NCBI RefSeq assembly: GCF_020711235.1
Contig: NZ_JAJFAV010000006.1
Coordinates: 62,001-126,000 of the forward strand
DNA: 64,000 nucleotides
Direction of reading: 5' to 3'
DNA from: Hymenobacter sp. 15J16-1T3B
Lineage (GTDB): Bacteria; Bacteroidota; Bacteroidia; Cytophagales; Hymenobacteraceae
How positions within the stretch are numbered: the stretch's first letter is position 1; every line of letters starts with the position of its first letter. A program made the translations under genes and the position numbers. This document shows positions 28,977-45,352 of the stretch, one piece after another. The notes under the pieces are model-generated. The model was given only the letters and a program-made list of their open reading frames with translations. It ran no database searches and was not told the origin of the DNA.

Positions 28977-30419
28977 TTACTGCTGCGCGTTCAGCACGCC
29001 GTCGAGCAGGCCGGGCAGCACACCCAGCAGCACCGTCAGGCCCATCAGCACCACCAGCACGGCCGATTGCAGCAGCGTCACGGGCACCGGGGCTTCGGCG
29101 CCTTCTTCGGCCGGCTTCATGTACATGGCAATGATGGGGCGCAGGTAGTAGTAGATACCGATGGCCGACATCACCACGGCAAACACGATCAGGCCGATGT
29201 AGTGTTCTTGGGCGGCGGCGTTGAACAGCTGGAACTTGCCGAAGAAGCCCGCCGTCAGCGGAATGCCGGCCAACGACAGCATGGAAATGGTCATGGCCAG
29301 GGCCAGCAGCGGGTTGGTGCGGGCCAGGCCGTTGAGGCCGTCGTAATCTTCGCGCTGGCGCTGGTTGTATACCAGCTGCAGCACGCCGAAGGCGGCCACC
29401 GTGGCCAGCGAGTAAGCCAGCGAGTAGAAGAAAATGGCCGAGGCCGACAGCGCGCCGGTGCGCAGGGCCACCAGGGCCAGCAGCAGGTAGCCCGCGTGCG
29501 AGATGCTGGAGTAGGCCAGCATGCGCTTGGCGCTTTTCTGAGCTACCGCGCCCACGTTGCCGATGAGCAGGGTCAGCACAAGCATGGTGGTGAGCGTGGG
29601 CAGCCAGAACGGAATGGTGTCGCCACCGAAGGCCACCACCAGCAGCTTGAAGAAGCCCGCCACGCCGGCCGTTTTCACCACCGTGCTCATGAAGCCGGTG
29701 AAAACCGTCGGGGCGCCTTCGTACACGTCGGGCGTCCAGAAGTGGAAGGGCGCGGCCGAAATCTTGAAGCCGATGCCGATGAGCATGAGCAGGATGCCGA
29801 TGTACATCATCGGGGTCAGCGTGGCGTCGGCGGCGGGTAGGGCGCGGATGGCGGTGCCCATCTGCGTCAGGTCGAAGGTGCCGGTGGCGCCGTAGAGCAG
29901 GGCCACGCCGAACAGCAGGATGCCGGTGGCGAAGGAGCCCATCAGAAAGTACTTCAGGGCCGCTTCGTTGGAGCGCAGGTTGCTCTTATCCGAGCCGGCC
30001 AGCACGTACATGGCAATGCTGAGCGTCTCGATGCCGAGGAACAGGATCAGGATGTTGGTGTAGCTCACCATCATGATGGCGCCCACCAGCGAAAACAGGA
30101 TGATGCTGTAGAATTCGGCCAGATTGGGGTTGTCGTCCTGCACGAACTTTTGCGAGAAGGGCAGCAGCAGCAGGGCCGTCAGCACGATGACGCCGGTGAA
30201 GACGCGGGCGTACTGGTCGAACTGCAGCATGCTGCGTAGGTAATCGACGCGGGCCCACTCGGCTATGGCCGCCGAGCTGTTGTCGACGTCGAAGATGTTG
30301 ATGGCCAGCACGGCGGCCAGCACCAGCATCACCGCCGGCAGAATGGCGCGGTTGGAGCGCAGGAAGCCCAGGAACAGATTGGCCAGCCCGGAAACGGAAA
30401 GCAGAATAATCGAGAGCAT
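28977..30419 (-). CDS. nuoN: NADH-quinone oxidoreductase subunit N
   Basis: A 480-residue antiporter-like membrane subunit of complex I with about 14 helices; it forms one of the proton channels. Typical are the Glu in LFLGIETLSIAMYVL, the Lys in EAALKYFLMGSF and the half-channel segment FKISAAPFHFWTPDVYEGAP. Length is usual (470-490). It is the last gene of the nuoKLMN unit, 12 bases after nuoM, and ends at a bidirectional terminator. Confidence 0.97.
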   Translation of the reverse strand: MLSIILLSVSGLANLFLGFLRSNRAILPAVMLVLAAVLAINIFDVDNSSAAIAEWARVDYLRSMLQFDQYARVFTGVIVLTALLLLPFSQKFVQDDNPNLAEFYSIILFSLVGAIMMVSYTNILILFLGIETLSIAMYVLAGSDKSNLRSNEAALKYFLMGSFATGILLFGVALLYGATGTFDLTQMGTAIRALPAADATLTPMMYIGILLMLIGIGFKISAAPFHFWTPDVYEGAPTVFTGFMSTVVKTAGVAGFFKLLVVAFGGDTIPFWLPTLTTMLVLTLLIGNVGAVAQKSAKRMLAYSSISHAGYLLLALVALRTGALSASAIFFYSLAYSLATVAAFGVLQLVYNQRQREDYDGLNGLARTNPLLALAMTISMLSLAGIPLTAGFFGKFQLFNAAAQEHYIGLIVFAVVMSAIGIYYYLRPIIAMYMKPAEEGAEAPVPVTLLQSAVLVVLMGLTVLLGVLPGLLDGVLNAQQ

Positions 30420-30431
30420 GGGGCGGGAGGC

Positions 30432-31892
30432 TTAGCGGTTGATGAGCACCAGCAGCTTGTTCACGGCCGGCTCCGAAATGTGCATGAACGTGCCCGGGAA
30501 CAGCCCGATCCAGAACACCATCACGACCAGCGGCACCAGCACGGCCAGCTCGGCGCCCGTCAGGTCGCGGATGACGGCGCTGAACGAGGAATCCGGGCCC
30601 AGCATCACGCGCTGGAACATACGCAGCAGGTACACCGCGCCGAACACGATGGTCAGGCCCGCTACGGCGCCCAGCCAGGGGTTGAACTGGTACACGCCCA
30701 TCAGCAGCAGGAACTCGCCCACGAAGCCGTTGGTGAGCGGCAGGGCCACGGTGCCGAGCAGAATCACGAGGAAGGTCACCGACAGCAGCGGCGTGGCGCG
30801 CGTCAGGCCGCCCAGCTCCGGAATCTGCCGGGTGCCGGTGCGCCGCTCAATGATGTCGGCAATGAAGAACATGCCGACCACGTTCACGCCGTGGGCCAGC
30901 ATCTGAATCACGGTGCCCTGCAGGCCCACGGCCGTCAGCGAGAACATGCCGGCAATCATCAGGCCCACGTGGGACAGCGAGGAAAAGGCAATCAGGCGCT
31001 TCATGTCGCGCTGGCGGATGGCAATGAGGGCGCCGTAGATGACGCCGATAACGGCCAGCACCATAATCAGCCCCACCCAGCGGCTCACGCCCAAGGGCAC
31101 GACGGGCATCAGCCAGCGCAGCGTGCCGTAGATACCCATCTTGAGCATGATGCCCGAGAGCAGCATGGTGGCCGGGGCCGGGGCTTCGGCGTAGGTGTCG
31201 GGCTGCCAAGAGTGCAGCGGAAACAGCGGCATCTTGATGGCAAAAGCCGCGAAGATGAGCAGGAACACCCAGGACTGCTCCTCGGTGCTCAGGTTCAGGT
31301 TGTAGAACGCGGAGAGGTCGGAGCTGCGGGCGGCGCCGGTGGCCCCGGTCATGTAGTACAGGTACACGAAGCCGGCCAGCATCAGCAGCGAGCCGACCAC
31401 GGTGTAGATGAAGAACTTCAGCGTGACTTGCACGCGCCGCTCCCCGCCCCACACGCCGGCCAGGAAGTAAATCGGAATCAGGGCCACTTCCCAGAAGAAG
31501 TAGAACACGAAGGCGTCGAGGGCCACGAACACCCCGATCAGGCCGCTCTGCATGAACAGCACCAGGGCGTAGAACACCGAGGGGTTTTCGTACTCGTGGC
31601 GAAACGAGGCCAGCAGAATCAGCGGCACCAGAAAGGCCGTGAGCAGCACCAGCAGCAGGCTCAGCCCATCCATCCCGATGTGGAAATGGATGCCGGCCGA
31701 GGCCAGCCAAGCGTAGTCCAGCTCGAAGTGCGGCAGGGAGTAGTCAGTCTGGAACTGGAAGGCCGCGTAAATGGCCAGCACCAGCTCGACCAGCGAAGCA
31801 CCAAAGGCCAGCGCCCGCGCCGCGGAACCGCGCACGAAGTGCAGCAGCAGGGCGGCGGCCACGGGCCAGATAAGCAGAAGGGCAGTCAGCAT
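30432..31892 (-). CDS. nuoM: NADH-quinone oxidoreductase subunit M
   Basis: A 486-residue antiporter-like membrane subunit of complex I. The Glu-containing FFWEVALIPIYFLAGVWGG, the Lys in VTLKFFIYTVVGSLLML, and KMPLFPLHSWQPDTYAEAP are diagnostic for NuoM, as is LIAFSSLSHVGLM. It pumps protons in the membrane arm. It is separated from nuoL by 120 bases that carry a strong hairpin and is nearly contiguous with nuoN. No defect seen. Confidence 0.97.
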   Translation of the reverse strand: MLTALLLIWPVAAALLLHFVRGSAARALAFGASLVELVLAIYAAFQFQTDYSLPHFELDYAWLASAGIHFHIGMDGLSLLLVLLTAFLVPLILLASFRHEYENPSVFYALVLFMQSGLIGVFVALDAFVFYFFWEVALIPIYFLAGVWGGERRVQVTLKFFIYTVVGSLLMLAGFVYLYYMTGATGAARSSDLSAFYNLNLSTEEQSWVFLLIFAAFAIKMPLFPLHSWQPDTYAEAPAPATMLLSGIMLKMGIYGTLRWLMPVVPLGVSRWVGLIMVLAVIGVIYGALIAIRQRDMKRLIAFSSLSHVGLMIAGMFSLTAVGLQGTVIQMLAHGVNVVGMFFIADIIERRTGTRQIPELGGLTRATPLLSVTFLVILLGTVALPLTNGFVGEFLLLMGVYQFNPWLGAVAGLTIVFGAVYLLRMFQRVMLGPDSSFSAVIRDLTGAELAVLVPLVVMVFWIGLFPGTFMHISEPAVNKLLVLINR

Positions 31893-31974
31893 TTTGTCTC
31901 AGAAAGCGGCGGCGCGGCGTAAGCTCGTGGCACCACTGGGTTTAGGCTGCAAGTATCTTCTCGGGGTAAAACGA

Positions 31975-32008
31975 CGTGGTGCTCCGACGTTGGGGTCGGG
32001 GCACCACG
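31975..32008. terminator. intra-operon hairpin between nuoL and nuoM
   Basis: Arms CGTGGTGC and CCGAC (31975-31988, one mismatch pair) match their inverse at 31995-32008 around a 6-base loop. On the minus strand TCGTTTTACC follows, so it could end part of the transcripts after nuoL or act as an mRNA-stabilising 3' stem. Confidence 0.65.
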
Positions 32009-32012
32009 CGTT

Positions 32013-33962
<1,950 letters not shown>

Positions 33963-34073: not shown

Positions 34074-34406
34074 CTACCACTTGAGCCTGTCGAGCAGGTT
34101 GACGTCGGTGTTCTGAATGTTGCGGTAGATCATCACGATAATGCCCAGGCCCACGGCAACTTCCGCGGCGGCTACGGCCATGATGAAAAACACGAAGACC
34201 TGCCCATTCGGATCGGCGCGGTAGGCCGAAAATGCCGCGAGCAGGACGTTGACGGCGTTGAGCATCAGCTCCACGCACATGAAAATGATGATGGCATTGC
34301 GCCGCGTGAGCACGCCCAACACGCCAATGCTGAACAGAGCAGCGGCGAAGAAGACGTAGTGTTGGAGCGGAACGGTGCGAATGACTTCCGGTATCGTCGA
34401 TTCCAT
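34074..34406 (-). CDS. nuoK: NADH-quinone oxidoreductase subunit K
   Basis: A 110-residue membrane subunit of complex I with three helices. The two buried Glu of the family are in FMCVELMLNAVNVLL and AAAEVAVGLGIIV. Length is usual (100-110). It is the first gene of the separate nuoKLMN unit: upstream lies an exact TACCTTTG box at 34463-34470 and then a fold-back repeat, the ECF sigma gene and the cupin gene, instead of nuoJ. Confidence 0.97.
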   Translation of the reverse strand: MESTIPEVIRTVPLQHYVFFAAALFSIGVLGVLTRRNAIIIFMCVELMLNAVNVLLAAFSAYRADPNGQVFVFFIMAVAAAEVAVGLGIIVMIYRNIQNTDVNLLDRLKW

Positions 34407-34462
34407 TCAGGACGGGGTAACGGCGGAAAAAAGCCCACAACATACTGGGGCCAATTAGCGGG

Positions 34463-34470
34463 CAAAGGTA
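34463..34470 (-). promoter_or_regulatory. -7 element TACCTTTG of the nuoKLMN unit
   Basis: Exact TAnnTTTG on the minus strand, 57 bases before the nuoK start. It supports a separate transcript for nuoK-N. Confidence 0.55.
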
Positions 34471-34603
34471 GCCCGAAACTTGGGAAAACCACGCGGAAAA
34501 CTGGCCTTATTGTCCGGCTGCCGCCCCGTCTTGCCTATGGCAAATGCGCAAACAAGCGTTCGGCTAGCAGTCGGCGCAAACGGCTGCCCCGGCTCACCCC
34601 GCC

Positions 34604-34786
34604 GTCATTGCAGGGAGCGGCCGAAGCAATCTTTCCTCACGCGGCTTGCCTGCTCTACAGGCACAGATGCGAAACGCTGCTGCCCGAAACTTGCGTTGGC
34701 AAGCTCAGGCCGTGTTTTCGGGTCGTAAGCAGTGTGCCGGCATTGCTACTAAAGGAAGGATTGCTTCGGCTGCGCCTCGCAATGAC
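34604..34786. repeat. 183-bp fold-back repeat in the nuoK/sigma spacer
   Basis: The outer 34 bases (left arm begins GTCATTGCAGGGAGCGG) recur in inverse at 34753-34786 with about six differences. The interior contains smaller hairpins such as GCCTG-ctcta-CAGGC. It fills most of the 487-base stretch between nuoK and the sigma gene (34407-34893), in which I see no gene. Confidence 0.8.
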
Positions 34787-34860
34787 AGCCAGTGCTGATG
34801 GCCGCACCGGCCAAAGTGTGCCTTGACCACCTTCCCAAAAATTTTCTATTCCGGGTAAAG

Positions 34861-34868
34861 TAATTTTC
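34861..34868 (+). promoter_or_regulatory. -7-like element TAATTTTC
   Basis: One base off TAnnTTTG, 26 bases before the sigma-factor ATG at 34894, in a locally AT-rich stretch. Confidence 0.3.
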
Positions 34869-34893
34869 CGGCGCCTGCGTCCTCCCTAGCAGA

Positions 34894-35496
34894 ATGGAAC
34901 AGGCCTTGACCATACTTCCCACCAGCGCGGCCATGACCGAGCAAAACGACCGGCTGCAGCAGGCCGTGCGCGAGCAGCGCGGCAAGCTGCTCTCGTTCAT
35001 CCGCCGCCGCATCCCCGACGAGGACGATGCCGAAGACGTACTGCAGGACGTCTTCTACGAGCTGGTGCAAACCTACCGCCTCGTCAAGCCCGTGGAGCAG
35101 ATGGCCGCCTGGCTGTTCCGCGTGGCTCGCAACAAGATCATCGACCGGTACCGCCGCCCCAAAACCGCCTCCCTGGAGGACGCGGCCGCCTACCACTCCG
35201 CCGCCGATTCCGACGAGCCCCTGCTGCTGGCCGACATCCTGCCCGCCCCGGACGACTCCACCGAAACGGCCATGGCCCGCGAAACCATCATGGAAGCCAT
35301 CCTGGATGCATTGGAGGAGCTACCCGCCGCTCAGCGTGAGGTGTTCGTCTGGCACGAGTTCGAGGGCAAGACCTTCAAGCAGATGGCCGAGGAAACCGGT
35401 GTGCCGCTCAAAACCCTGATTTCGCGCAAACACTACGCCGTGCAGCAACTGCGCGTGAAGCTGCAAGCCTTGTACGACGACCTTTTTCTGGATTAG
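34894..35496 (+). CDS. ECF-type RNA polymerase sigma factor
   Basis: A 200-residue sigma-70 family factor with regions 2 and 4 only. Region 2 (about 28-98) has DEDDAEDVLQDVFYELVQTY and WLFRVARNKIIDRYRR; region 4 (about 140-195) has LPAAQREVFVWHEFEGKTFK and a helix-turn-helix GVPLKTLISRKHYAV. An acidic linker joins them. Such factors redirect RNA polymerase in response to envelope or other stress. No classical anti-sigma gene is adjacent; the next gene, 128 bases downstream, encodes a small membrane protein that could play this role. A later ATG at 34933 is possible. The gene sits, in opposite direction, between the two halves of the nuo cluster. Confidence 0.92.
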   Translation: MEQALTILPTSAAMTEQNDRLQQAVREQRGKLLSFIRRRIPDEDDAEDVLQDVFYELVQTYRLVKPVEQMAAWLFRVARNKIIDRYRRPKTASLEDAAAYHSAADSDEPLLLADILPAPDDSTETAMARETIMEAILDALEELPAAQREVFVWHEFEGKTFKQMAEETGVPLKTLISRKHYAVQQLRVKLQALYDDLFLD

Positions 35497-35624
35497 GAAT
35501 GCATGTGGGCGAAATGTGAGCAAGGTGTTCGATTAATCGGCACAACCTGATTTTCCACATTTTCACATTACCCACATTCCTGCACCTTCCCCTTCATTTC
35601 CCACACTCGCACATTCACTTCATC

Positions 35625-36005
35625 ATGGACCGCAAATTCTGGTTTCTCCGCGGCCTGCGCATCATACTCGCCGTTGCTTTTTTCGTCGCCCTGGCCGGCT
35701 TCGTGGTCATGTCGCTCTGGAATTGGCTAATGCCCTACCTGTTCCACTTGCCCACGGTTTCCTTTGCCCAGGCCTTGGGCCTGTTTATCCTCAGCAAGCT
35801 GCTGCTCGGCGGCTTCCGCGGCGGCCCCGGCGCCGCTTGGAAGGCCAAAGCCCAGCAGCACTGGCGCCAGAAAATGGCCAGCCGCATGCAAGGCATGAGT
35901 GAGGAAGAGCGGGAGAAGTTCCGCCAACGGATGCGCAACTGCGGCCCCTGGGGCCGCATGGCCGAAGCGCGCCAAGCGGCGCCGCCTACCGCCACTGCCG
36001 ACTAA
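35625..36005 (+). CDS. small two-helix membrane protein downstream of the ECF sigma gene
   Basis: A 126-residue protein that I do not recognise. Two hydrophobic segments lie at about 11-33 (LRIILAVAFFVALAGFVVM) and 48-62 (ALGLFILSKLLLGGF). They are followed by a basic, helical cytoplasmic tail with KAKAQQHWRQKMASRMQGM and SEEEREKFRQRMRNCGPWGR. No anti-sigma zinc-finger or FecR pattern is seen, yet its position after a sigma gene suggests a regulatory or stress link. The intergenic DNA before it repeats the word CACATT several times. Its stop codon lies inside a 52-base perfect hairpin. Confidence 0.75.
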   Translation: MDRKFWFLRGLRIILAVAFFVALAGFVVMSLWNWLMPYLFHLPTVSFAQALGLFILSKLLLGGFRGGPGAAWKAKAQQHWRQKMASRMQGMSEEEREKFRQRMRNCGPWGRMAEARQAAPPTATAD

Positions 36006-36052
36006 ACGCCAACGCGGCCCCCAAGCAATTGGGGGCCGCGTTGGCGTTTAGT
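36001..36052. terminator. perfect 24-bp hairpin with GCAA loop
   Basis: Arm 36001-36024 (ACTAAACGCCAACGCGGCCC...) is perfectly inverted at 36029-36052 around the loop GCAA, a GNRA-type tetraloop. The TAA stop of the preceding gene is inside the left arm. It separates convergent genes, but neither side has a T run, so it is unusual as an intrinsic terminator. Confidence 0.75.
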
Positions 36053-36079
36053 CGGGTGCGCAGCCGCTACGGGCAGCCC

Positions 36080-36391
36080 CTAGCGAAATATCAGCAGCTT
36101 GGCATCGGCTAGGCAGCGGAGCGCGTGTGGGGCTGCCGCCGGAATGATGAGGTAGTCGCCGGCTTCGAGCAGGGTGGTGGTGCCGTCCAGCGCGAGTTCT
36201 AGGCGGCCGGCCAAGCAGGTTACCAGTACCTCCTCGGCCGAGTGGTGCGTGGGCATCAGTTCCCCGGCGCGGAAGGTTTTGTAGAGCACTTTTTGCCCAT
36301 TGCGGCTGAAGAGTACCAAGCCTTTTTGCTCGCCAACGGGCGTATGGTGGCCGGCCAGCAGGCTGCCGCTTTGGGTGGGAGAGGGGTTCAT
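36080..36391 (-). CDS. small cupin-domain protein
   Basis: A 103-residue single-domain cupin (six-stranded jelly-roll barrel). Motif 1 is in MPTHHSAEEVLVTCLAGRLE (the His pair and Glu) and motif 2 in LLEAGDYLIIPAAAPHAL (the distal His), so a metal site is likely. It could be a small dioxygenase, isomerase or binding protein; no substrate is suggested. The ATG at 36391 was preferred; an upstream ATG would add 24 residues of little sense. The gene lies downstream of the nuoJ terminator on the same strand. Confidence 0.85.
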   Translation of the reverse strand: MNPSPTQSGSLLAGHHTPVGEQKGLVLFSRNGQKVLYKTFRAGELMPTHHSAEEVLVTCLAGRLELALDGTTTLLEAGDYLIIPAAAPHALRCLADAKLLIFR

Positions 36392-36515
36392 GCGTTTCGC
36401 GTTCAACAGGTGAATGATGCAGGCGAAAGTCGCACAAGCAGCGGTCCGGTCAGCTGAATACAATCACCCGCTGCGCTGACGATTATCAGCCCGCCGCGCG
36501 AAGAAATGGTCCTAT

Positions 36516-36559
36516 AAAAAACGAGCGTGGCGCCCGACAACTGGGCGCCACGCTCGTTT
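36516..36559 (-). terminator. terminator of the nuoA-J operon
   Basis: A 17-base perfect stem (AAACGAGCGTGGCGCCC and its inverse, 7-base loop) starts 18 bases after the nuoJ stop and, read on the minus strand, runs into six T. This cuts nuoA-J off from the genes downstream. Confidence 0.88.
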
Positions 36560-36576
36560 GACAAAGGGTCGGTTGC

Positions 36577-37083
36577 TTAGAAGTGTCGCTCCCCGGCTTC
36601 GCGCTTGCCCAGCATCACCGAGCCCACCATGGCTACCAAGAACAGCACCGAGGCCAGTTCGAAGGGCAACAGGTACTGCTGGTAGAGCACCAGGCCCAGA
36701 CGGTTGACCATGCCAATCTGCGAATCGAAGGTATCCAGGTCGGCCCCGGTGGGGTTTACGTTGCGCAGCGCGGCAATGAGCACCAGCAGCAGCAGGCCAC
36801 CGGCAATGGCGCCGGCCACCTTCGCCAGCGCCGATTTGTTGGGCTCCGTGTCGGCGTTCAGGTTCAGGAACATCACCACGAAGAGGAACAGCACCATGAT
36901 GGCGCCGGCGTACACGATGATGTTGACGGCGGCCAGGAACTGCGCGTTCAGCAGCAGATAGTGCCCCGAAATGGCGAAGAACGTGAGCACCAAGAAGAGC
37001 ACCGAGTGCATCGGGTTTTTGGCAAACACCACGCCCAGGGCTGCCAGCAGCGCAACGAACGTCAGGAAATAGAAGAGGGACAT
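36577..37083 (-). CDS. nuoJ: NADH-quinone oxidoreductase subunit J
   Basis: A 168-residue membrane subunit of complex I with five helices, including the family signature NIIVYAGAIMVLFLFVVMFL. It lies next to NuoK and NuoH in the E-channel of the membrane arm. Length is normal. It is the last gene of the first nuo unit; nuoK, its usual direct neighbour, is 2.2 kb away. The 90-base spacer to nuoI contains ATGGTCAA in tandem (37091-37109) and no clear stem. Confidence 0.96.
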   Translation of the reverse strand: MSLFYFLTFVALLAALGVVFAKNPMHSVLFLVLTFFAISGHYLLLNAQFLAAVNIIVYAGAIMVLFLFVVMFLNLNADTEPNKSALAKVAGAIAGGLLLLVLIAALRNVNPTGADLDTFDSQIGMVNRLGLVLYQQYLLPFELASVLFLVAMVGSVMLGKREAGERHF

Positions 37084-37173: not shown

Positions 37174-37746
37174 TTACTCAATGCCAGCCATGCGGCGGGC
37201 CAGGGCTTCGGCTTGCTCGGCGGTAAGCTGAATGCCGCGCTTCGAGCGGGCGTTCGGGTCGACGGGTTCCACCAGGCGGTCCTTGCCGTAGATGAACTCG
37301 TCGCGCTCGAAACGGGGCGGGGCCATCTTGTCGGCCTGTAGATAGATGGCTGCTTTGGGGCAGGCTTCCTCGCAGAGGCCGCAGAAGATGCAGCGCAACA
37401 TGTTGATTTCGTAGCTGACGGCGTACTTCTCCTCGCGGTAGAGGTTCTGCTCACCCTTTTTCCGCTCACCGGCTACCATGGTAATGGCTTCGGCCGGGCA
37501 GGCCACGGCGCAGAGGCCGCAGGCCGTGCACCGCTCCCGGCCGGCTTCGTCGCGCTTGAGCACGTGCAGGCCGCGGAACGTCGGCGCAATAGGGCGCAGC
37601 TCCTCGGGGTAACGGATGGTGGCTTTTTTCGAGAAGAAGTGCTTGAGCGTGATGCCCATGCCCGTGAGAATGGCCGGCAGGTAAGCCCGCTCCGCCAGGG
37701 TCATCGGCTTCTTTTCGAGGTGCTTGGATCTATTAGTCAGTTTCAT
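37174..37746 (-). CDS. nuoI: NADH-quinone oxidoreductase subunit I
   Basis: A 190-residue peripheral-arm subunit with two [4Fe-4S] clusters, N6a and N6b, near the quinone site. The two motifs are ERCTACGLCAVACPAEAI and RCIFCGLCEEACPKAAI. All eight Cys are present. It lies between nuoH and nuoJ in the usual order. The N-terminal 20 residues are basic and would sit on the membrane surface. Confidence 0.97.
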   Translation of the reverse strand: MKLTNRSKHLEKKPMTLAERAYLPAILTGMGITLKHFFSKKATIRYPEELRPIAPTFRGLHVLKRDEAGRERCTACGLCAVACPAEAITMVAGERKKGEQNLYREEKYAVSYEINMLRCIFCGLCEEACPKAAIYLQADKMAPPRFERDEFIYGKDRLVEPVDPNARSKRGIQLTAEQAEALARRMAGIE

Positions 37747-37825
37747 CGGGAGGTCGAATGTAGCGCGAACTGGCAGGTCGCGTATTTCGGGCGGTTGTCG
37801 TTGAACAACAATTGCGTGCTAGAGG

Positions 37826-37844
37826 CGCGAAGGCAAACTTCGCG
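37826..37844. repeat. small hairpin between nuoH and nuoI
   Basis: CGCGAAG-gcaaa-CTTCGCG, a perfect 7-base stem in the 109-base spacer. It may be a processing or stability stem in the nuo mRNA. Confidence 0.5.
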
Positions 37845-37855
37845 GTAGGGCCGTA

Positions 37856-38998
37856 TTAGCGGCGCGCTACCGTGCGAACTTCCGTAGGCACAGCCTCTTT
37901 GGATATTTCCCGCTTGGGCTCCTTGCTGCCGAAGAACAGGATGAAGGCACCCGTCAGCAGGATGTTCAGGATGGCAATGGGGAAGAGCATGGTCCAGCCC
38001 AGGCGCATCAGCTGGTCGTAGCGGAAGCGCGGCAGTGTCCAGCGCACCCACATAAAGAAGAAGATGAAGAAGAAAATCTTCGCGAACAGCACCACCGTGC
38101 CGAGGATGGTCACCACGTTGTGGGCAAACAGCTCGCCCTGCGAGGAGGTCAGCGAATTGTAGAGCAGGTGCTCACCCGGGAAGCTGAAGCCACCGAAGTA
38201 CAGCGTGCTCATCACGGCCGAGGCCACAAACACGTTGATGTACTCAGCGAAGAGGTACAGGCCCATCTTCATCGAGCTATACTCGGTGTGGTAGCCGCCC
38301 ACCAGTTCGGTTTCGCACTCGGGCAGGTCGAAGGGCGTGCGGTTCGTTTCTGCGAAAGCGCACACGATGAAGATGATGAAGCCCAGCGGCTGGTACACGA
38401 TGTTCCAGAGGCCGTCGTACTGCTGCAGGGCAATTTCGCGCAGGCTCAGGGTGCCCGTTACCATCAGCAGGGCAATCAGGGCCATGCCCATGGCTAGTTC
38501 GTAGCTCACGGCTTGGGCGGCGGCGCGGATGGCACCGAGCAGGGAGAACTTGTTGTTCGAGGCCCAGCCGCCAATCATCAGCCCGTACACGCCCAGCGAC
38601 ACCACGCCGAACACGTAGAGCATGCCGATGTTGACTTCAATGGCCTGCAGGCGCACCACTTCGCCGTTGTTCAGCAGCAGGGTGTTGCCGAAGGGAATAA
38701 CGGCCGAGGCCATCAGGGCCGTGGTCATGGCCAGGCAGGGCCCGAACACGAACAGGCCGCGGTTGGCGCCGGCGGGGAAGAATTCTTCCTTGGTGAAGAG
38801 CTTTACGGCGTCGGCCAGGGGCTGCAGCAGGCCGTAGGGGCCGGCGCGGTCGGGGCCGACGCGGTCCTGCAGAAAGGCCGCCACCACGCGCTCGGCGTAG
38901 GTGGAGTAGGTGGCAATCAGCAGCGTAATGCCGAAGACGGCCAGGATGACGAGGCTCTGCCAGGAGATGACGACAGACGTCAGGGCGGAAATATCCAT
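37856..38998 (-). CDS. nuoH: NADH-quinone oxidoreductase subunit H
   Basis: A 380-residue membrane subunit that builds the quinone chamber with NuoB and NuoD. Signature segments are QDRVGPDRAGPYGLLQPLAD and CAFAETNRTPFDLPECETEL, with the conserved Glu and Arg. About eight helices are predicted. The C-terminal tail (SKEPKREISKEAVPTEVRTV) is longer than in Escherichia coli. It follows nuoG after a spacer that holds a 17-base inverted repeat. Confidence 0.97.
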   Translation of the reverse strand: MDISALTSVVISWQSLVILAVFGITLLIATYSTYAERVVAAFLQDRVGPDRAGPYGLLQPLADAVKLFTKEEFFPAGANRGLFVFGPCLAMTTALMASAVIPFGNTLLLNNGEVVRLQAIEVNIGMLYVFGVVSLGVYGLMIGGWASNNKFSLLGAIRAAAQAVSYELAMGMALIALLMVTGTLSLREIALQQYDGLWNIVYQPLGFIIFIVCAFAETNRTPFDLPECETELVGGYHTEYSSMKMGLYLFAEYINVFVASAVMSTLYFGGFSFPGEHLLYNSLTSSQGELFAHNVVTILGTVVLFAKIFFFIFFFMWVRWTLPRFRYDQLMRLGWTMLFPIAILNILLTGAFILFFGSKEPKREISKEAVPTEVRTVARR

Positions 38999-39002
38999 TG
39001 GG

Positions 39003-39082
39003 AGTTGTCAGTTGCGAGTTGTCCGTTGTCAGTCAGCTGCGGAGGTAGTTAGGGGTTTCCCAACCACTCGCAACTGACAACT
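39003..39082. repeat. 17-bp inverted repeat between nuoG and nuoH
   Basis: AGTTGTCAGTTGCGAGT (39003-39019) is perfectly inverted at 39066-39082. The arms and flanks are built from repeated words (AGTTGTC, GACAACT). The stem would fill the whole spacer, from six bases after the nuoG stop to four bases before the nuoH ATG. Confidence 0.75.
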
Positions 39083-39087
39083 GACAA

Positions 39088-40095
39088 CTATCTACCTAAC
39101 TTCAGCGGCGGGTTGTTTTCCAGGTCGCGGACCGAGCTTTCGGGCAGGTCGGCAATGACTTGCGGGTTTACCACCGGCAGTTCGTAGTGGTTAGCCGAGA
39201 TAACCGAAGTACGCTGAATGTGCGAGGGGCCCTCGATGGTCCAGTCCGAGGTTTCCTTCTTCTCGAAGCGGCAGGTATTGCAAATCCACTCCTTCACCTC
39301 GCCGTACTCGTCCTTGCGGGCGGTTACGCGCAGCACGTCCTTGCCCTTGTACCAGAGCACCACGTTGCCCGAGCACTTCGGGTTTTCGCAGTTGCGGTGG
39401 GCGTTTACCGGCTTGGTAAACCACACGCGCTGCTTGAAGCGGAAGGTCTTGTCGGTCAGGGCACCCACCGGGCACACGTCGATGACGTTGCCGGAGAAAT
39501 CCTGGTCGATGATGTTGTCGATGTAGGTGCCAATTTCGGCGGCGTCGCCGCGGCCCAGCACGCCGTGCACGCGGCGCTCGGTCAGCTGGTCGGCCGTGTA
39601 CACGCAGCGGTAGCACAGGATGCAGCGCGTCATGTGCAGCTGGATGTAGGGGCCGATGTCGATTTTCTCGAAGGTGCGGCGCTCCTCTTCGTAGCGGGTA
39701 GTGGCCACGCCGTGCTCGAAGGCAAAGTTCTGCAAATCACACTCGCCGGCCTGGTCGCACACCGGGCAATCGAGCGGGTGGTTGATAAGCAGCATCTCCA
39801 CGATGCCCTTGCGCACGTCGAGCACCGATTGGTTGGTCGTATTCTCGACCACCATGCCGTCCTGCACCGTGGTGATGCACGAGGGCACCAGCTTGGGCAT
39901 GGGGCGCGGGTCCTTGGCCGAGCCGGCCGCCACCTTCACCAGGCAGGCGCGGCATTTGCCGCCCGTGCCCTTGATGGGGGTGTAGTAGCACATGGCCGGC
40001 GGCACGATGTTGCCCCCAATTTTGCGGGCTGCATTCAGGATAGTGGTACCGTCTGGTACTTCTACCTCAATGCCGTCGAAGGTTATTTTAGCCAT
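39088..40095 (-). CDS. nuoG: short NuoG: 2Fe-2S/4Fe-4S subunit of complex I
   Basis: A 335-residue peripheral-arm subunit carrying the iron-sulfur relay. The N-terminal 2Fe-2S domain has CYYTPIKGTGGKCRACLVKV, the His-Cys [4Fe-4S] site is HPLDCPVCDQAGECDLQ, and the N4 site includes CILCYRCV and DVCPVGAL. A further four-Cys set (CENPKC, CNTC) follows. The large molybdopterin-oxidoreductase-like domain of Escherichia coli NuoG (about 900 residues) is missing. Such short NuoG proteins occur in other Bacteroidota, so this is probably the native form and not a truncation; the frame ends cleanly. Confidence 0.93.
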   Translation of the reverse strand: MAKITFDGIEVEVPDGTTILNAARKIGGNIVPPAMCYYTPIKGTGGKCRACLVKVAAGSAKDPRPMPKLVPSCITTVQDGMVVENTTNQSVLDVRKGIVEMLLINHPLDCPVCDQAGECDLQNFAFEHGVATTRYEEERRTFEKIDIGPYIQLHMTRCILCYRCVYTADQLTERRVHGVLGRGDAAEIGTYIDNIIDQDFSGNVIDVCPVGALTDKTFRFKQRVWFTKPVNAHRNCENPKCSGNVVLWYKGKDVLRVTARKDEYGEVKEWICNTCRFEKKETSDWTIEGPSHIQRTSVISANHYELPVVNPQVIADLPESSVRDLENNPPLKLGR

Positions 40096-40150
40096 TTCTG
40101 TGAGAGTCGTTTTTCAGTGCGTCTGCCGTTGGTATTTCGTCTCGTCAGGC

Positions 40151-40263
40151 CGTCATTCCGAGCGAAGTCGAGGAATCTCGCGTGTTTAGTTCGATAGTAA
40201 ATTCTTCGTTCAACGAGAAGATTACTACCCGAGCGAGATGTCTCGGCTGCGCTCGACATGACG
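40151..40263. repeat. 113-bp fold-back repeat between nuoF and nuoG
   Basis: Outer arms of 30 bases (left begins CGTCATTCCGAGCGAAGTCG) pair with 40234-40263 at 24 of 30 positions, and inner arms TTCTTCGTT/AACGAGAA continue the fold almost to the centre. It is the best-preserved copy of the family inside an operon and would form a long stem in the nuo mRNA. Confidence 0.85.
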
Positions 40264-40304
40264 TTCTTGTAGGTCGAGTCGCGGTAGACGTTCAAAGTTA
40301 AGCC

Positions 40305-41648
40305 TTAGGCGACTACCGCCGCTTTCGACGAGTAGTAGGCGCCGGGGCGGGTGGCTTCGGCGGGGTTGGTCACGTGCCACTCAAACTCGTGGCGGAAGTG
40401 GCGCACGGCGGCAGCCACCGGCCAGGCAGCAGCTTCGCCGAGCGGGCAGATGGTGTTGCCCTCGATTTGCTTGGCTACGCTCACCAGCAGGTCGATGTCG
40501 TGCATGTGGCCGTGGCCGTGCTCTAGGCGGTGCAGCACCTTCTCCATCCAGCCGGTACCCTCGCGGCAGGGCGAGCATTGCCCGCACGACTCGTGGTGGT
40601 AGAAGCGGGAGAAGCTCCAGGTGTTGCGCACGATACAGGTCGTCTCGTCCATGGCAATGAAGCCGCCCGAGCCCAGCATGGTGCCGGTCACGAAGCCACC
40701 GTCGGAGAGGGACTCGTAGGTCATCAGGCGGTTTTCACCGGCGGCCGTCTTCAGAATCAGCTCCTTGGGCAGAATCGGCACCGACGAGCCGCCGGCTACC
40801 ACAGCCTTCAGGTCGCGGCCCTTCCAGATACCGCCGCAGTACTCGTCGGAGTAGATAAACTCCTCCACGGGCACGCCCAACTCGATTTCGTAGATGCCGG
40901 GCTTGTTGAGGTGGCCACAGGCCGAAATCAGCTTGGTGCCAGTGCTCTTGCCCACGCCCAGCTTGGCGTATTCCTCGCCGCCGTCGTTCACAATCGGAAC
41001 TACCGCGGCAATGGATTCCACGTTGTTCACCACCGTGGGGCGGGCGTAAAGGCCCTGCACGGCCGGGAACGGGGGCTTATTGCGTGGGTTGCCGCGCTTG
41101 CCTTCCAGCGACTCCAGCAGGGCGGTTTCTTCGCCGCAGATGTAGGCGCCGCCGCCGGGGTGCACGTGCAGGTCCAGGTCGTAGCCCGAGCCCAGGATGT
41201 TCTTGCCTAGGAAGCCGTTGGCGTAGGCCTCGGCAATGGCTTTTTCCAGGATGCGCAGCACGTACAACAGCTCGCCGCGGATGTAGATGTACGAGGTGTT
41301 GGCGCCCAGCGCGTACGAGCTCGTAATCATGCCCTCGATGAGCAGGTGGGGCAGCTTGGTCATCAGGTGCCGGTCCTTGAAGGTACCGGGCTCCGATTCG
41401 TCGGCGTTGCACACCAAGTGGCGCGGCACGCCCTCCGGCTTGGCCAAGAAGCTCCACTTCATGCCTGTGGGGAAGCCGGCGCCGCCGCGGCCGCGCAGGC
41501 CCGACTTCTTCACCTCTTCCACCACCTCGTCGGGGGTCATCGTCTTCAGGGCCTTCTCCACCGAGCGGTAGCCGCCGTGTTTGCGGTATACCTCGAAGGA
41601 GTCGATGCCGGGGACGTTAATATGTTCGGTCAGTAGCTTGCGGCCCAT
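40305..41648 (-). CDS. nuoF: NADH-quinone oxidoreductase subunit F
   Basis: A 447-residue NADH-oxidising subunit with FMN and [4Fe-4S] cluster N3. The NADH/FMN motifs GLRGRGGAGFPTGMKW and VCNADESEPGTFKDR are clear; the cluster motif is ESCGQCSPCREG plus the later Cys in GNTICPLGEAAAW. The ATG at 41648 was chosen; upstream in-frame sequence overlaps nuoE and is not protein-like. It follows nuoE by 17 bases. Electrons enter here and go to NuoE and NuoG clusters. Confidence 0.97.
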   Translation of the reverse strand: MGRKLLTEHINVPGIDSFEVYRKHGGYRSVEKALKTMTPDEVVEEVKKSGLRGRGGAGFPTGMKWSFLAKPEGVPRHLVCNADESEPGTFKDRHLMTKLPHLLIEGMITSSYALGANTSYIYIRGELLYVLRILEKAIAEAYANGFLGKNILGSGYDLDLHVHPGGGAYICGEETALLESLEGKRGNPRNKPPFPAVQGLYARPTVVNNVESIAAVVPIVNDGGEEYAKLGVGKSTGTKLISACGHLNKPGIYEIELGVPVEEFIYSDEYCGGIWKGRDLKAVVAGGSSVPILPKELILKTAAGENRLMTYESLSDGGFVTGTMLGSGGFIAMDETTCIVRNTWSFSRFYHHESCGQCSPCREGTGWMEKVLHRLEHGHGHMHDIDLLVSVAKQIEGNTICPLGEAAAWPVAAAVRHFRHEFEWHVTNPAEATRPGAYYSSKAAVVA

Positions 41649-41665
41649 GACGGTAGGTTCTAAGG

Positions 41666-42232
41666 TTATTGTTGCGAGTGCTGCAGGCCGGTCTCTTCCC
41701 ACGGCAGCAGCGGGCGGTGCACCAGGTTGCGCAGTTCGTTGAGCATGGCATCCACCGCTTCCGGCGTGTCCAGCTGCTCGTAGTACTTCTCGCGCACCTG
41801 CACGATGGGGGCCGTGCCGCAGGCGGCCAGGCACTCCACTTCTTTCAGCGTAAACAGGCCGTCCGGTGAGGTTTCACCGACTTTGGCGCCGGTGATGCGC
41901 TCCAACTGAGCCGTCAGCTCGTCTGAGCCGCGCAGCATGCAGGGACCCGTGCGGCAGATTTCCAGCACGTGCTTGCCCACCGGCTTGAGGTTGAACATCG
42001 TGTAGAACGAGGACACCTCGTACACCTCGATGGGCAGGATGCCGATGGTTTCGGCCACTAAATCCTGCACCTCGGGGCTTACCCAGCCGCCAAACTCCGC
42101 CTGCGCAATGTGCAGGATGGGGAGCAGGGCCGACTTGCGGCGCTCGGCGGGGTAGTGCTCAAACAGACGGGCAATTTCGGCCTTCGCGGCTGCGGAGAAT
42201 TGCGGCTTTACGGTCGCGGTTGTCGATTCCAT
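41666..42232 (-). CDS. nuoE: NADH-quinone oxidoreductase subunit E
   Basis: A 188-residue thioredoxin-like [2Fe-2S] subunit (cluster N1a). The Cys pairs are in CRTGPCMLRG and VECLAACGTAP, spaced as in the family. The N-terminal helical part has EVQDLVAETIGILPIEVYEV. The ATG at 42232 leaves a 10-base gap to the nuoD stop; an upstream ATG would overlap nuoD. It works with NuoF at the electron entry. Confidence 0.96.
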   Translation of the reverse strand: MESTTATVKPQFSAAAKAEIARLFEHYPAERRKSALLPILHIAQAEFGGWVSPEVQDLVAETIGILPIEVYEVSSFYTMFNLKPVGKHVLEICRTGPCMLRGSDELTAQLERITGAKVGETSPDGLFTLKEVECLAACGTAPIVQVREKYYEQLDTPEAVDAMLNELRNLVHRPLLPWEETGLQHSQQ

Positions 42233-42242
42233 GCGCGGCAGG

Positions 42243-43505
42243 TTAAGCGTCCAGTTCGCCAGCAATGACGTTCATGGAGCTCAGGGTAATGATGGCGTCG
42301 GAGAGGGTCGAGCCTACCACCATTTCGGGGTAAGCCTGGTAGTAGATGTAGCAGGGCCGGCGGAAGTGCAGGCGGTAGGGCGTGCGCCCGCCGTCCGAAA
42401 TCAGGTAAAAGCCCAACTCGCCGTTGCCGCCTTCCACGGAGTGGTACACTTCACCAGCCGGGGCGTCGATTTCGCCCATGATGATCTTGAAGTGGTAGAT
42501 CAGGGCCTCCATGTTGCGGTACACCTCCTGCTTGGGGGGGAGGTAGTAGTGCGGGGCGTCGGCGTGGTAGGGGCCTTCCGGCAGGTTTTCCAGGGCCTGG
42601 TTGATGATGCGCAGGCTCTGCCAGATTTCCTCGTTGCGCACCAGGTACCGGTCGTAGGTGTCGCCGTTGGTGCCCACCGGAATTTCGAAGTCGAAGTCCT
42701 GGTACGAAGAGTAGGGGTTCATCACCCGCACGTCGTAGTCGACGCCGGCGGCGCGCAGGTTCGGGCCGGTGAAGCCGTAGTTCAAGGCGCGCTCGGCGGT
42801 AATCGGACCCACGTTGATGGTGCGGTCCATGAAGATGCGGTTGCGGTCGAACAGGTTCTGGAACTCGCGCATCACCGCCGGGAAACGCTTCAGCCAGGTG
42901 CGCAGCTTCTCCAGCGCCACCGGCGAGAGGTCCCGCTCCATGCCGCCCACGCGGCCCATGTTGGTGGTCAGGCGGGAGCCGCAGACCTCCTCGTAGATTT
43001 CGTAGATGTTTTCGCGCTCCTCAAACAAGTAGAGGAAGCCCGAAAACGCACCGGTGTCCACGCCCAGGATGCCGTTGCAGACCAGGTGGTCGGCAATGCG
43101 GGCCAGCTCCATCATGATGACGCGGATGTACTGGGCGCGCTTGGGCACCTCGATGCCCAGCAGCTTTTCCACCGTCATGTGCCAGCCCATGTTGTTGATG
43201 GGGCTGGAGCAGTAGTTCATCCGGTCCGTCAGCGGCGTAATCTGGTAGAAGGGACGCCGCTCGGCAATCTTCTCGAAAGCCCGGTGGATGTAGCCGATGG
43301 TGGGCACGCCGGAAATGATTTTCTCGCCATCCATTTGCAGGATGTTCTGGAAAATGCCGTGCGTAGCCGGGTGGGTCGGCCCGAGGTTCAGCGTGGTGAG
43401 GTCGGTACCGAAGTCCTCGGTTTTAGTGACCATCACGCCGCGCTGCTGTTGGGCAGCCTCGTGGTGTATATGTCCCGTCGCGGTCAGTGCGTCGTTCGTT
43501 GCCAT
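42243..43505 (-). CDS. nuoD: NADH-quinone oxidoreductase subunit D
   Basis: A 420-residue 49-kDa-type subunit that shapes the quinone-binding site with NuoB. Signature stretches are LGPTHPATHGIFQNILQMDG, YIHRAFEKIAERR and the Asp/His-bearing region around ELARIADHLVCNGILG. NuoC and NuoD are separate proteins here. The ATG at 43505 was chosen because upstream in-frame codons are the translation of the fold-back repeat. It is followed by nuoE. Confidence 0.97.
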   Translation of the reverse strand: MATNDALTATGHIHHEAAQQQRGVMVTKTEDFGTDLTTLNLGPTHPATHGIFQNILQMDGEKIISGVPTIGYIHRAFEKIAERRPFYQITPLTDRMNYCSSPINNMGWHMTVEKLLGIEVPKRAQYIRVIMMELARIADHLVCNGILGVDTGAFSGFLYLFEERENIYEIYEEVCGSRLTTNMGRVGGMERDLSPVALEKLRTWLKRFPAVMREFQNLFDRNRIFMDRTINVGPITAERALNYGFTGPNLRAAGVDYDVRVMNPYSSYQDFDFEIPVGTNGDTYDRYLVRNEEIWQSLRIINQALENLPEGPYHADAPHYYLPPKQEVYRNMEALIYHFKIIMGEIDAPAGEVYHSVEGGNGELGFYLISDGGRTPYRLHFRRPCYIYYQAYPEMVVGSTLSDAIITLSSMNVIAGELDA

Positions 43506-43510
43506 TGTTG

Positions 43511-43624
43511 ATTTTGTCATCCTGAGCAGAGCGAAGGACCTTGTCACGTCCGCGCCAGCTGCTGATTTACTTTTTCTGACAAAGGCAGCGGGGATAAGTT
43601 GCTTCCTTCGTCAGCATGACAAAT
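43511..43624. repeat. fold-back repeat between nuoC and nuoD
   Basis: The left end (ATTTTGTCATCCTGAGCAGA...) pairs with the right end (TCCTTCGTCAGCATGACAAA) imperfectly. It belongs to the same family as the repeat at 5900. Its right arm reaches the nuoC stop and its left arm ends six bases before the nuoD start. Confidence 0.75.
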
Positions 43625-43630
43625 GGATGA

Positions 43631-44200
43631 TTACCGGCCGAAGAACAGGTCGGTTTTGTCTTCGCGGGTGCCGTCTTCCAACGGGTACTCCTTGCGCATG
43701 GGGTGGTAATCCATGTCTTCCACATTCAGGATGCGGATGAGGTTGGGGTGCCCGGTGAAGATGATGCCGTAGAAGTCGAAGGCTTCGCGCTCCATCCAGT
43801 TGGCGGTGGCGTACACGTCCGTGAGGGTGGGCACGACCGGGTCCTGAATGGGGAAGAAGATTTTCAGGCGCAGCCGGATGTTGTTGACCAGGCTGTGCAG
43901 CTGGTACACCACGCTCAGCTCCTTGCCTTCGTTGTCGGGCCAGTGCACGCCGCACATGGTGGTGAGGAAGTTGAGCTGCAGCTGCTCCTCGCCGTGGAGC
44001 ACGTCGATGATTTCGTGAATCTTCTCGCGGCTAACGGTGGCGGTGAGCAGGCCGTACTGCTCCTCCACGTCCGAGAACGTGTCGGCGCCAAACAGCTCCT
44101 GCAAGCGGGCCAGTATCTGCTCGTTGCCGATGGCTGCGTGGGCTTTCACATAGTCAGCCGCCTTTTGCTGAGCCGCCGGCGAGGTATTGAGTTCAGACAT
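43631..44200 (-). CDS. nuoC: NADH-quinone oxidoreductase subunit C
   Basis: A 189-residue 30-kDa-type subunit of the peripheral arm. The family signature is visible as WMEREAFDFYGIIFTGHPNL and ILNVEDMDYHPMRKEYPLE. The N-terminal 45 residues are an Ala/Gln-rich helix. It lies between nuoB and nuoD in the canonical order, with a hairpin on one side and a fold-back repeat on the other. Confidence 0.96.
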   Translation of the reverse strand: MSELNTSPAAQQKAADYVKAHAAIGNEQILARLQELFGADTFSDVEEQYGLLTATVSREKIHEIIDVLHGEEQLQLNFLTTMCGVHWPDNEGKELSVVYQLHSLVNNIRLRLKIFFPIQDPVVPTLTDVYATANWMEREAFDFYGIIFTGHPNLIRILNVEDMDYHPMRKEYPLEDGTREDKTDLFFGR

Positions 44201-44225
44201 ACAGTCTACTGAAGCAAAGCAAGGA

Positions 44226-44260
44226 AGCGGAGCCGCTGGCCACTAGCCGACGGCTCCGCT
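44226..44260. repeat. hairpin between nuoB and nuoC
   Basis: AGCGGAGCCG (44226-44235) is perfectly inverted at 44251-44260, with GGC/GCC pairing in the loop. No T run follows on the minus strand, so it is more likely a processing or stability element than a terminator. Confidence 0.55.
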
Positions 44261-44266
44261 CGGGAG

Positions 44267-44824
44267 TTACTTGATGTTGTAGGACTCGAGCAGCGCCTGG
44301 TACTCGGGCGAGTTGCGGCGGCGGATCGACTCGTTTTTGGCCAGCTCCTGCACGCGCATCAGGCCTTCCAGCACCTGCTCGGGGCGGGGCGGGCAGCCGG
44401 GCACGTACACGTCGACCGGGATGATGCGGTCGATGCCCTGCAGCACGGAGTAGCTGTCGAAGATGCCGCCCGAGCAGGCGCAAGCGCCCATGGCCAGCAC
44501 CCAGCGGGGCTCGGCCATCTGCTCGTACACCTGCTTCACGATGGGGGCCATCTTCTTGGCAATGGTGCCCATCACCATCAGCAGGTCGGCTTGGCGCGGC
44601 GAAAACGACGGACGTTCCGAGCCGAAGCGCGAAATGTCGTAGTGGGCGCCCATGGTGGCCATGAACTCGATGCCGCAGCAGGAGGTGGCGAAGGGCAGGG
44701 GCCACAGGGAGTTGGCGCGGGCAATGCCCACCACCTTGTCCAGCGACGTGGCGAAGAAACCGGCGCCTTCGATGCCCTCGGGGGCGGCTACGGTTTTGAT
44801 TTCAGGAACGCGGTTATCACTCAT
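44267..44824 (-). CDS. nuoB: NADH-quinone oxidoreductase subunit B
   Basis: A 185-residue subunit with the terminal [4Fe-4S] cluster N2, which reduces quinone. The tandem Cys pair is in [13 protein letters not shown], and the other two are in [12 protein letters not shown] and [16 protein letters not shown]. Its C-terminal helix is slightly extended. It lies 91 bases after nuoA. Confidence 0.97.
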
Positions 44825-44915
44825 GACGAATGTCTCTCTGGTAGGGAAGTAAGCGGGGCGGCAACCACAATATTCCGAACACCAGCCCGGAAATAAAGGT
44901 TTGGCAGCCTTTCGC

Positions 44916-45302
44916 TTAGTTCTGCCACTTCAGGATGCCTTTCTTGATGATGTAGTAGAAGCCGGCCAGCAGCAGGCCCATGAACATCAGCATCTCTACG
45001 AAGCCGAAGGTGCCCAGCTCACGGAAATTCACGGCCCAGGGGTACATGAAGATGACTTCCACGTCGAAGAGCACGAAGAGAATGGCCGTCAGGAAGTACT
45101 TCACCGAAATCGGGGTGCGGGCGTTGCCCACCGACTCGATACCGCACTCAAACGAGGCGTCCTTCACCTTGGAGTGGCGCTTGGGCCCCACGAGGTGGGA
45201 CACCACCATCGAGAAGGCGACGAAGGCCAGCGCAAGGCCAAATTGAATCAGAATCGGCAGATAATCCGCCGGTTGGTAGGCAACAGGGGTGGCTAACAGC
45301 AT
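44916..45302 (-). CDS. nuoA: NADH-quinone oxidoreductase subunit A
   Basis: A 128-residue three-helix membrane subunit of complex I. The family motif [20 protein letters not shown] contains the functional Cys of the loop, and [20 protein letters not shown] follows. I chose the ATG at 45302 because homologues begin close to [13 protein letters not shown], and because the TACCTTTG box at 45345-45352 then leaves a leader of about 37 bases. An ATG at 45338 would add 12 residues and be leaderless. It is the first gene of the nuoA-J operon. Confidence 0.94.
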
Positions 45303-45344: not shown

Positions 45345-45352
45345 CAAAGGTA
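45345..45352 (-). promoter_or_regulatory. -7 element TACCTTTG of the nuoA-J operon
   Basis: Exact TAnnTTTG on the minus strand upstream of nuoA. The same box stands before nuoK, so both nuo units could be read by the primary sigma factor. Confidence 0.55.

Follow-up and report, generated by a model that had tools for sequence, protein, structure and literature searches.

In the general scheme, an extracytoplasmic function (ECF) sigma factor is paired with a cognate membrane anti-sigma factor. In Bacteroidetes, according to an excerpt of one survey, only 6% of the ECF sigma factors have a class I anti-sigma factor encoded nearby (PMC7406223), and two further studies, in the excerpted text, assign TAnnTTTG to the primary sigma factor of Bacteroidota as its -7 box (PMC9723704; PMC7366714). 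Here, we describe a locus of Hymenobacter sp. 15J16-1T3B in which putative promoters for both sigma types lie within the gene cluster for respiratory complex I. The window, that is the whole stretch of DNA that was analyzed, comprises 64,000 nucleotides (positions 62,001 to 126,000 of contig NZ_JAJFAV010000006.1) of a genome of 6.33 Mb and contains all 14 nuo genes, with the genes for an ECF sigma factor and a small membrane protein placed between nuoJ and nuoK. Based on a comparison of sequences across the family and the phylum, we consider it quite probable that complex I is split into two housekeeping units (three in one clade) and that an autonomous ECF module lies between them, the sigma factor of which does not drive nuoK.

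Pfam matches for all subunits confirm the canonical order of the 14 nuo genes, with nuoL, nuoM, and nuoN as three antiporter-type matches to PF00361, as had been claimed in a sequence-only reading of the window. The cluster is interrupted after nuoJ, the last gene of the A-J block (36577..37083, minus strand; PF00499, E 1.1e-42), and resumes 2.2 kb further on with nuoK, the first gene of the K-L-M-N block (34074..34406, minus strand; PF00420, E 2.7e-30). The interval has genes on both strands and, read along the plus strand, consists of nuoK (minus), a gap, the sigma gene (plus), the open reading frame (ORF) for the membrane protein (plus), an inverted repeat, a cupin gene (minus), a hairpin, and nuoJ (minus). 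Coordinates and Pfam results agree with the earlier description of this interval, in which the sigma and membrane protein genes lie on the strand opposite to nuo and the cupin gene on the same strand; the gene order was thus right, but the cupin gene is not a general component and the split is not particular to the window's genome. The sigma gene (34894..35496, plus strand; PF04542 and PF08281) has an uncertain start codon, since matches to it in the sister genus often start near residue 4-16. Pfam finds only Sigma70_r2, r4_2, and an overlapping r4 in its product, which therefore has regions 2 and 4 without other sigma-70 domains, as expected of an ECF sigma factor, and it scores 87.8 bits with the sigma70-ECF model TIGR02937 (cut-off 42.9).

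The break between nuoJ and nuoK most likely dates to the common stem of the window's genus (g1) and a large sister genus (g5). Both genes were searched over 200 genomes of the family, and in all 122 scored genomes of these two genera (8 of g1 and 114 of the 116 of g5) they are non-adjacent, in 26 of them on different contigs. Seven g1 genomes have 1.8-3.1 kb between the two genes, and the eighth (G003) has them on two contigs; there, nuoJ and nuoK lie near the ends of G003:C22 and G003:C9, so the assembly seems to break within the interval, perhaps at a repeat. The g5 genomes are more varied: nuoJ and nuoK are found on the same strand 0.8-12 kb apart in 64 genomes, on the same strand 22 kb to 2.6 Mb apart in 5, on opposite strands of one contig 76-223 kb apart in 20, and on different contigs in 25. 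The two-contig genomes are not adjacent cases either, since in 25 of the 26 the contig that carries nuoK also has the sigma gene upstream of it, whereas in the remaining one (G071) the contig continues for more than 20 kb downstream of nuoJ without nuoK. Among the matches listed for the other four genera of the family, seven genomes were scored, six with the genes 155-317 nt apart and one (G034, with three copies) with a distance of 10.9 kb. In the wider phylum, 61 genomes were searched and nuoK was found in 56; at 27 of the 29 loci compared (the window's own excluded) nuoJ lies at most 100 nt upstream of nuoK, the others being one locus with 578 nt and one without a nuoJ match. The split in g1 and g5 together with this phylum-wide contiguity is what points to the g1 and g5 stem. 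The sequence-only reading had proposed a search of related nuo loci and had allowed for an insertion ancestral to most Bacteroidota; the search finds a split common to two genera, and the contiguous loci rule out that it is the ancestral Bacteroidota state. A recent mobile element that broke the operon in the window's strain would fit a repetitive extragenic palindromic (REP)-like inverted repeat and a genome-private cupin gene in the gap, as well as interval contents that differ among species. This explanation is hardly credible, given that the interval genes identified are those for the sigma factor, the membrane protein, and the cupin (other ORFs there lay outside the search), and the occurrence of the split in every scored genome of two genera rules it out.

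The signals on either side of the interval suggest that the two blocks are separate transcription units. A terminator-like hairpin with a 17-bp perfect stem and a T-run follows nuoJ (36519..36559, minus strand; -39.2 kcal/mol, z -7.5), practically where a strong minus-strand terminator had been proposed (36516-36559). A T-run hairpin stands 3' of nuoJ at 15 of 18 loci, namely 14 by the T count of the script and L092, where the T-run was counted inside the stem; L094, L095, and L103 fail. On the other side, TACCTTTG, an exact match to the Bacteroidota -7 box, precedes nuoK (34463..34470, minus strand), as had been noticed before, and an identical TACCTTTG box lies upstream of nuoA (45345..45352, minus strand), so that both blocks look housekeeping-driven. 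In the promoter set, consisting of 80 of the 103 eligible regions between the sigma gene and nuoK, TAnnTTTG occurs at most 140 nt upstream of nuoK in 80/80 genomes (2.2 expected from shuffling); it lies 48-76 nt before the start of the nuoK match in 78 of them and 25 nt before it in two. By eye, many of these upstream regions have the longer string TTTTCC-N-ATTTTCAGGATACCTTTGCC, and one subclade retains the box alone. The 64-kb window has 11 TAnnTTTG boxes on both strands. The nuo region accounts for four of these on its minus strand, one each upstream of nuoA and nuoK, one between nuoF and nuoG, and one within the sigma gene. The earlier proposal that K-N is uncoupled from A-J thus stands at the level of sequence signals, but the role it implied for the sigma factor does not.

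Upstream of the sigma gene is an ECF-type promoter, GTAAAGTA-N15-CGTCCT (34855..34883, plus strand), which with a score of 22.3 is the window's best match to the ECF matrix and is itself one of the 80 sites from which this matrix was built. The consensus TAAAGTA-N15-CGTCTG (TTAAAGTATTTTC-N10-CGTCTG) is found before the sigma gene in 80/80 genomes, where AAGTA or AAATA is separated from CGTC by the same distance in 78 and by one base more in two; a stricter ECF pattern is present in 71/80 (0.3 expected). With its CGTC in the -10 element, this promoter looks autoregulatory. On the nuoK strand, the ECF pattern is found in 0/80 nuoK upstream regions, where the ECF matrix gives a median of -11.2 vs. 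-10.7 for shuffled sequences. A second promoter recognized by this sigma factor upstream of nuoK, which the sequence-only reading had suggested looking for when it implied that a stress-type sigma factor controls K-N, was thus searched for by its pattern, which occurs in none of the 80 genomes.

Genomes that lack the sigma factor provide a natural control. Of the 124 genomes of g1 and g5, 117 have a close sigma orthologue, three of them with a second match (41-45% identity), and 116 have the membrane ORF; two g4 genomes have a sigma homologue of 46% identity and the membrane ORF as well. Seven g5 genomes (G107, G115, G133, G143, G156, G158, and G169) have no sigma match at E 1e-30 and no membrane protein match at E 0.001. 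In a tree of FtsH and phosphoesterase sequences from 30 genomes these seven group as a single clade (support 100), which points to a single loss of the sigma gene. The nuoK promoter is intact in 7/7 of them, and a nuoK driven by the sigma factor is rejected on the absence of the motif and on this intact promoter. A MaoC-like gene persists between nuoJ and nuoK in the sigma-less clade, and a matching gene is located between the sigma gene and nuoK in G061.

The same genomes were used to evaluate candidate targets. The pattern AAAGTAWN14CGTCY has 47 sites in the eight g1 genomes, compared to 13 for the reversed pattern, and the 30 sites with loci were inspected. Genes found downstream in at least two genomes include those for a membrane metallophosphoesterase, FtsH, a TetR-type regulator, a DUF5686 protein, an ABC transporter, and an acyl-carrier-like protein; as the count for the reversed-pattern control predicts, several further sites fall within ORFs or precede unrelated genes. 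Two of these genes were followed in 30 genomes, 23 with and 7 without the sigma gene (G188 was dropped for the phosphoesterase, as its locus is cut). The strict ECF motif precedes ftsH in 17/23 sigma-bearing vs. 0/7 sigma-less genomes, and the metallophosphoesterase gene in 13/22 vs. 0/7; without the three g1 rows the sigma-bearing counts are 14/20 and 10/19. The best scores in sigma-less genomes were 6.1 (ftsH) and -1.1 (phosphoesterase), and those reached by shuffled sequences 9.6 and 2.6. From the joint absence of gene and motif, a single event, we infer the specificity of the sigma factor. Neither nuoK nor any other nuo gene was found to belong to this putative regulon. The nuoC gene was considered as a target for its site in the window, the second best there (14.9), and was rejected, as none of 24 relatives' loci reach 10.

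In one derived clade, complex I appears to be divided further. A tree of the sigma factor and the membrane protein (80 genomes) needs two changes for the separation of nuoJ and nuoK, one of which is G003, so that 34/80 genomes inherited a single relocation; repeated separations as proof of a bond between sigma gene and nuoK were rejected, since the tree requires one relocation plus the two-contig genome G003. In 12/12 relocated genomes fetched (L341-L348, L390-L393), nuoK and nuoL are present without nuoM or nuoN within 2.7-5 kb downstream, and in 18/18 non-relocated genomes and the window K-L-M-N are together. The detached nuoM-N pair lies between A-J and K-L in G055 (~4.288-4.291 Mb, L359) and G011 (~707-710 kb, L365), so that complex I is arranged in three blocks, A-J, K-L, and M-N, at least in these two genomes. 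Upstream of nuoM both have TAAGTTTG; no such box was found in 16/16 contiguous nuoL-nuoM gaps, some of which are merely 61-65 nt long.

Several observations weigh against the reading of an autonomous module between housekeeping units. The sigma gene and nuoK are listed on one contig in 115 of the 117 sigma-bearing genomes and are always divergent, the sigma gene remaining upstream of nuoK even after K-L moved, which could mean a functional tie. Their distance is below 1 kb in 94 genomes, 1-2.5 kb in 7, and more than 2.5 kb in 14. This adjacency, and one nuoK upstream region of the 80, whose ECF matrix score of 10.7 falls among those of target sites that were accepted, would suit a sigma factor that directly controls K-N and ties part of complex I to stress. 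We nevertheless regard direct control as very unlikely, considering that TAnnTTTG and not the ECF pattern precedes nuoK throughout the promoter set, that the nuoK promoter is unaltered in the sigma-less genomes, and that the MaoC-like gene intervenes between the two genes in G061 and stays in the sigma-less clade. Rather less far-fetched, but still improbable, is an interaction of the divergent promoters that does not depend on sigma specificity, such as promoter competition, supercoiling, or a shared regulator, by which complex I and the sigma factor would be coupled via their common gap. The prevalence of short gaps agrees with this, also among the genomes with nuoJ and nuoK unlinked, in 43/51 of which the sigma gene lies less than 1 kb from nuoK; the gap nevertheless ranges from 147 nt to 20 kb, another gene stands between the divergent promoters in G061, and a single relocation event cannot show selection for the linkage. 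The sigma loss is one event as well, which makes the natural knock-out n = 1, and ftsH and the phosphoesterase gene were chosen from the g1 scan, which makes three of the rows tested for each gene non-independent. The strict motif fails before ftsH in 6/23 sigma-bearing genomes, four of them with near matches (10.8-15.2) and two (G091 and G113) with nothing alike, and before the phosphoesterase gene in 9/22, five of which score below 4. In a general scan for terminators, the nuo region gave 16 sites vs. 14.8 in shuffles, no excess, which means that a lone hairpin proves little and that its length and recurrence carry the weight. Finally, M-N was not found in G032 and G144, two of the four relocated genomes searched in part.

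The small membrane protein (126 aa; 35625..36005, plus strand) is a candidate anti-sigma factor, and its gene lies 3' of the sigma gene at 80/80 loci. It probably consists of two transmembrane helices and a cytoplasmic C-terminal helical part; the structure model has five helices (pLDDT 80.5, pTM 0.35). Searches with the window protein gave no Pfam or NCBIfam family at E 0.001 and, in Pfam, none over its cut-off at E 0.1, and no relative was found in the PDB by structure or sequence search. In a set of 18 family members, a weak NCBIfam match was seen for one (MAG0920_fam, E 4.4e-5) and a weak resemblance to Pfam Metal_resist for three (best E 0.0014); no Pfam or NCBIfam model of a class I anti-sigma (ASDI) domain was matched by the window protein or 17 relatives. 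Conserved positions are LWN, Q..GL, and E.F, and a C-terminal Cys, which g1, g5, and g4 conserve, does not belong to the columns invariant across the phylum. From the adjacency and the likely topology, the protein would probably hold the sigma factor inactive, and given the figure of 6% in the excerpted survey (PMC7406223), a new class of anti-sigma factors is a reasonable conjecture rather than a finding.

The sigma and membrane protein module probably predates its position beside nuoK. A profile of the membrane protein has matches in 44 of 247 genomes of the phylum, the weakest near E 4e-4, and named genomes were scanned as well, the best 80 loci among the matches listed being taken; the taxa found there include Chryseobacterium, Spirosoma, Salegentibacter, Chitinophagaceae, one Acidobacterium, and one Ignavibacteriales assembly. 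Together, 107 loci (27 plus the best 80, with three g1 or g5 loci left out) were compared. The sigma gene is directly upstream of the membrane protein gene in 104 of them, two of the others being without a sigma gene and one at a contig edge, and nuoJ, nuoK, or nuoL is found near the module in 0/107 (with flanks of ~1.5 kb around the 27 loci and of at most 4 kb around the other 80). The ECF motif precedes the sigma gene in 78/104 (12/25 and 66/79) vs. 0.55 expected from dinucleotide shuffles, and the g4 pairs have it too; pairs with the motif and without nuoJ, nuoK, or nuoL nearby across the phylum are what suggests that the module is older than its place in this cluster. Four Burkholderiaceae megaplasmids also have sigma homologues of 46-52% identity, at places where an incomplete gene table lists no gene, and a plasmid collection gave matches in Burkholderiaceae and Pantoea only.

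Taken as a course of events, a self-contained ECF module, composed of the sigma gene and the small membrane protein gene and transcribed from its own ECF promoter, would have arrived between nuoJ and nuoK in the common ancestor of g1 and g5. Complex I would have become two units, with an intrinsic terminator at the end of A-J and a TAnnTTTG housekeeping promoter for K-N, and in a later clade the cluster would have been broken again into A-J, K-L, and M-N, with a housekeeping box before the detached nuoM in the two genomes where it was found. The sigma factor most likely recognizes TAAAGTA-N15-CGTCTG and would run a set of envelope-type genes that includes its own, ftsH, and that for the membrane metallophosphoesterase, and the membrane protein would probably keep it inactive. 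The starts and stops of transcription, the sigma specificity, the anti-sigma role, and the stress function are predictions from these comparisons. A bolder proposal, which we put forward tentatively and with less than even confidence, is that the protein with two transmembrane helices founds a new class of anti-sigma factors that is widespread in Bacteroidota, where most ECF sigma factors lack a recognized class I partner, and forms with the sigma factor an ancient envelope-stress system that controls ftsH via TAAAGTA-N15-CGTCTG, which settled in the complex I cluster of one lineage and started its stepwise break-up.

The remaining genes and repeats of the locus are as follows. The rest of the A-J block, nuoI to nuoA (37174..45302, minus strand), was assigned by Pfam, as were nuoN, nuoM, and nuoL (28977..33962, minus strand; PF00361), nuoN by a separate Pfam search too. 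The cupin gene (36080..36391, minus strand; PF07883, Cupin_2, E 4.8e-11) occurs in 1/11 full nuoJ-nuoK intervals of sigma-bearing genomes, that of the window itself. Extra ORFs between nuoJ and the sigma pair vary by species (L108, L110, and L111), and this spot thus seems to acquire genes. The gap between the sigma gene and nuoK has a REP-like inverted repeat with 37-nt arms that are 84% complementary (34601-34637 and 34753-34789), and similar strings were seen by eye upstream of the sigma gene in some relatives. A 27-bp perfect inverted repeat (35998..36055; -64.6 kcal/mol, z -10.3), which lies between the membrane ORF and the cupin gene and spans the stop codon of the former, may be a bidirectional terminator for both sides. 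Within the A-J block, nuoG (39088-40095) is a short form of 335 aa, in which Pfam finds the N-terminal iron-sulfur domains but no molybdopterin-type domain; the nuoF-nuoG gap (40100-40300) has REP-like strings together with a TAACTTTG box that may be an internal promoter; and the nuoB-nuoC gap of many relatives (L394-L413) has, by eye, imperfect, species-specific inverted repeats that are TAGCTATTGGCTGTTGGC-like or CTCCTAGCTCC-like.

The gene arrangement, its phylogenetic spread, both promoter motifs, and the lack of the ECF motif before two genes in the genomes that have no sigma gene can be read from the genomes themselves. They portray a core respiratory operon that appears to have been dismantled stepwise, a housekeeping box preceding each block that was examined, and they allow one to follow across ~120 species how an operon for a large complex breaks up. 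They also call for caution, as the place of a regulator within an operon does not equal regulation, for which the regulator-free clade serves as a natural control. For an ECF system of the Bacteroidota they supply a promoter motif that can be tested, along with candidate targets and a candidate anti-sigma protein. The result listings of the literature searched contained no description of this system and no publication that joins nuoK, or nuo with complex I, to Hymenobacter, and among the titles on ECF sigma factors in Hymenobacter nothing related was found.

Compared to known systems, the window has the same 14 subunits in the same canonical order as the nuo cluster of other Bacteroidota, whereas in the scored g1 and g5 genomes this cluster is broken after nuoJ and, in 12/12 genomes fetched of one clade, after nuoL as well. 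With the Bacteroidota primary-sigma promoters, as far as the excerpts describe them (PMC7366714; PMC9723704), nuoA, nuoK, and the detached nuoM have the -7 box in common, a comparison made by the -7 box. The module agrees with the ECF sigma and anti-sigma scheme in the sigma regions 2 and 4, the membrane protein gene directly 3', and the promoter with CGTC in the -10 element before the sigma gene, but differs in a membrane protein without a recognized family model or PDB relative. The SM6 ECF promoters of Flavobacterium psychrophilum, in the excerpted account (PMC9723704), have the same conserved CGT in the -10 element and a sigma and anti-sigma pair among their targets; in contrast to the candidate targets here, those of SM6 include type IX secretion system (T9SS) and Band-7 (flotillin-like) genes, and the likeness is one of motif and targets.

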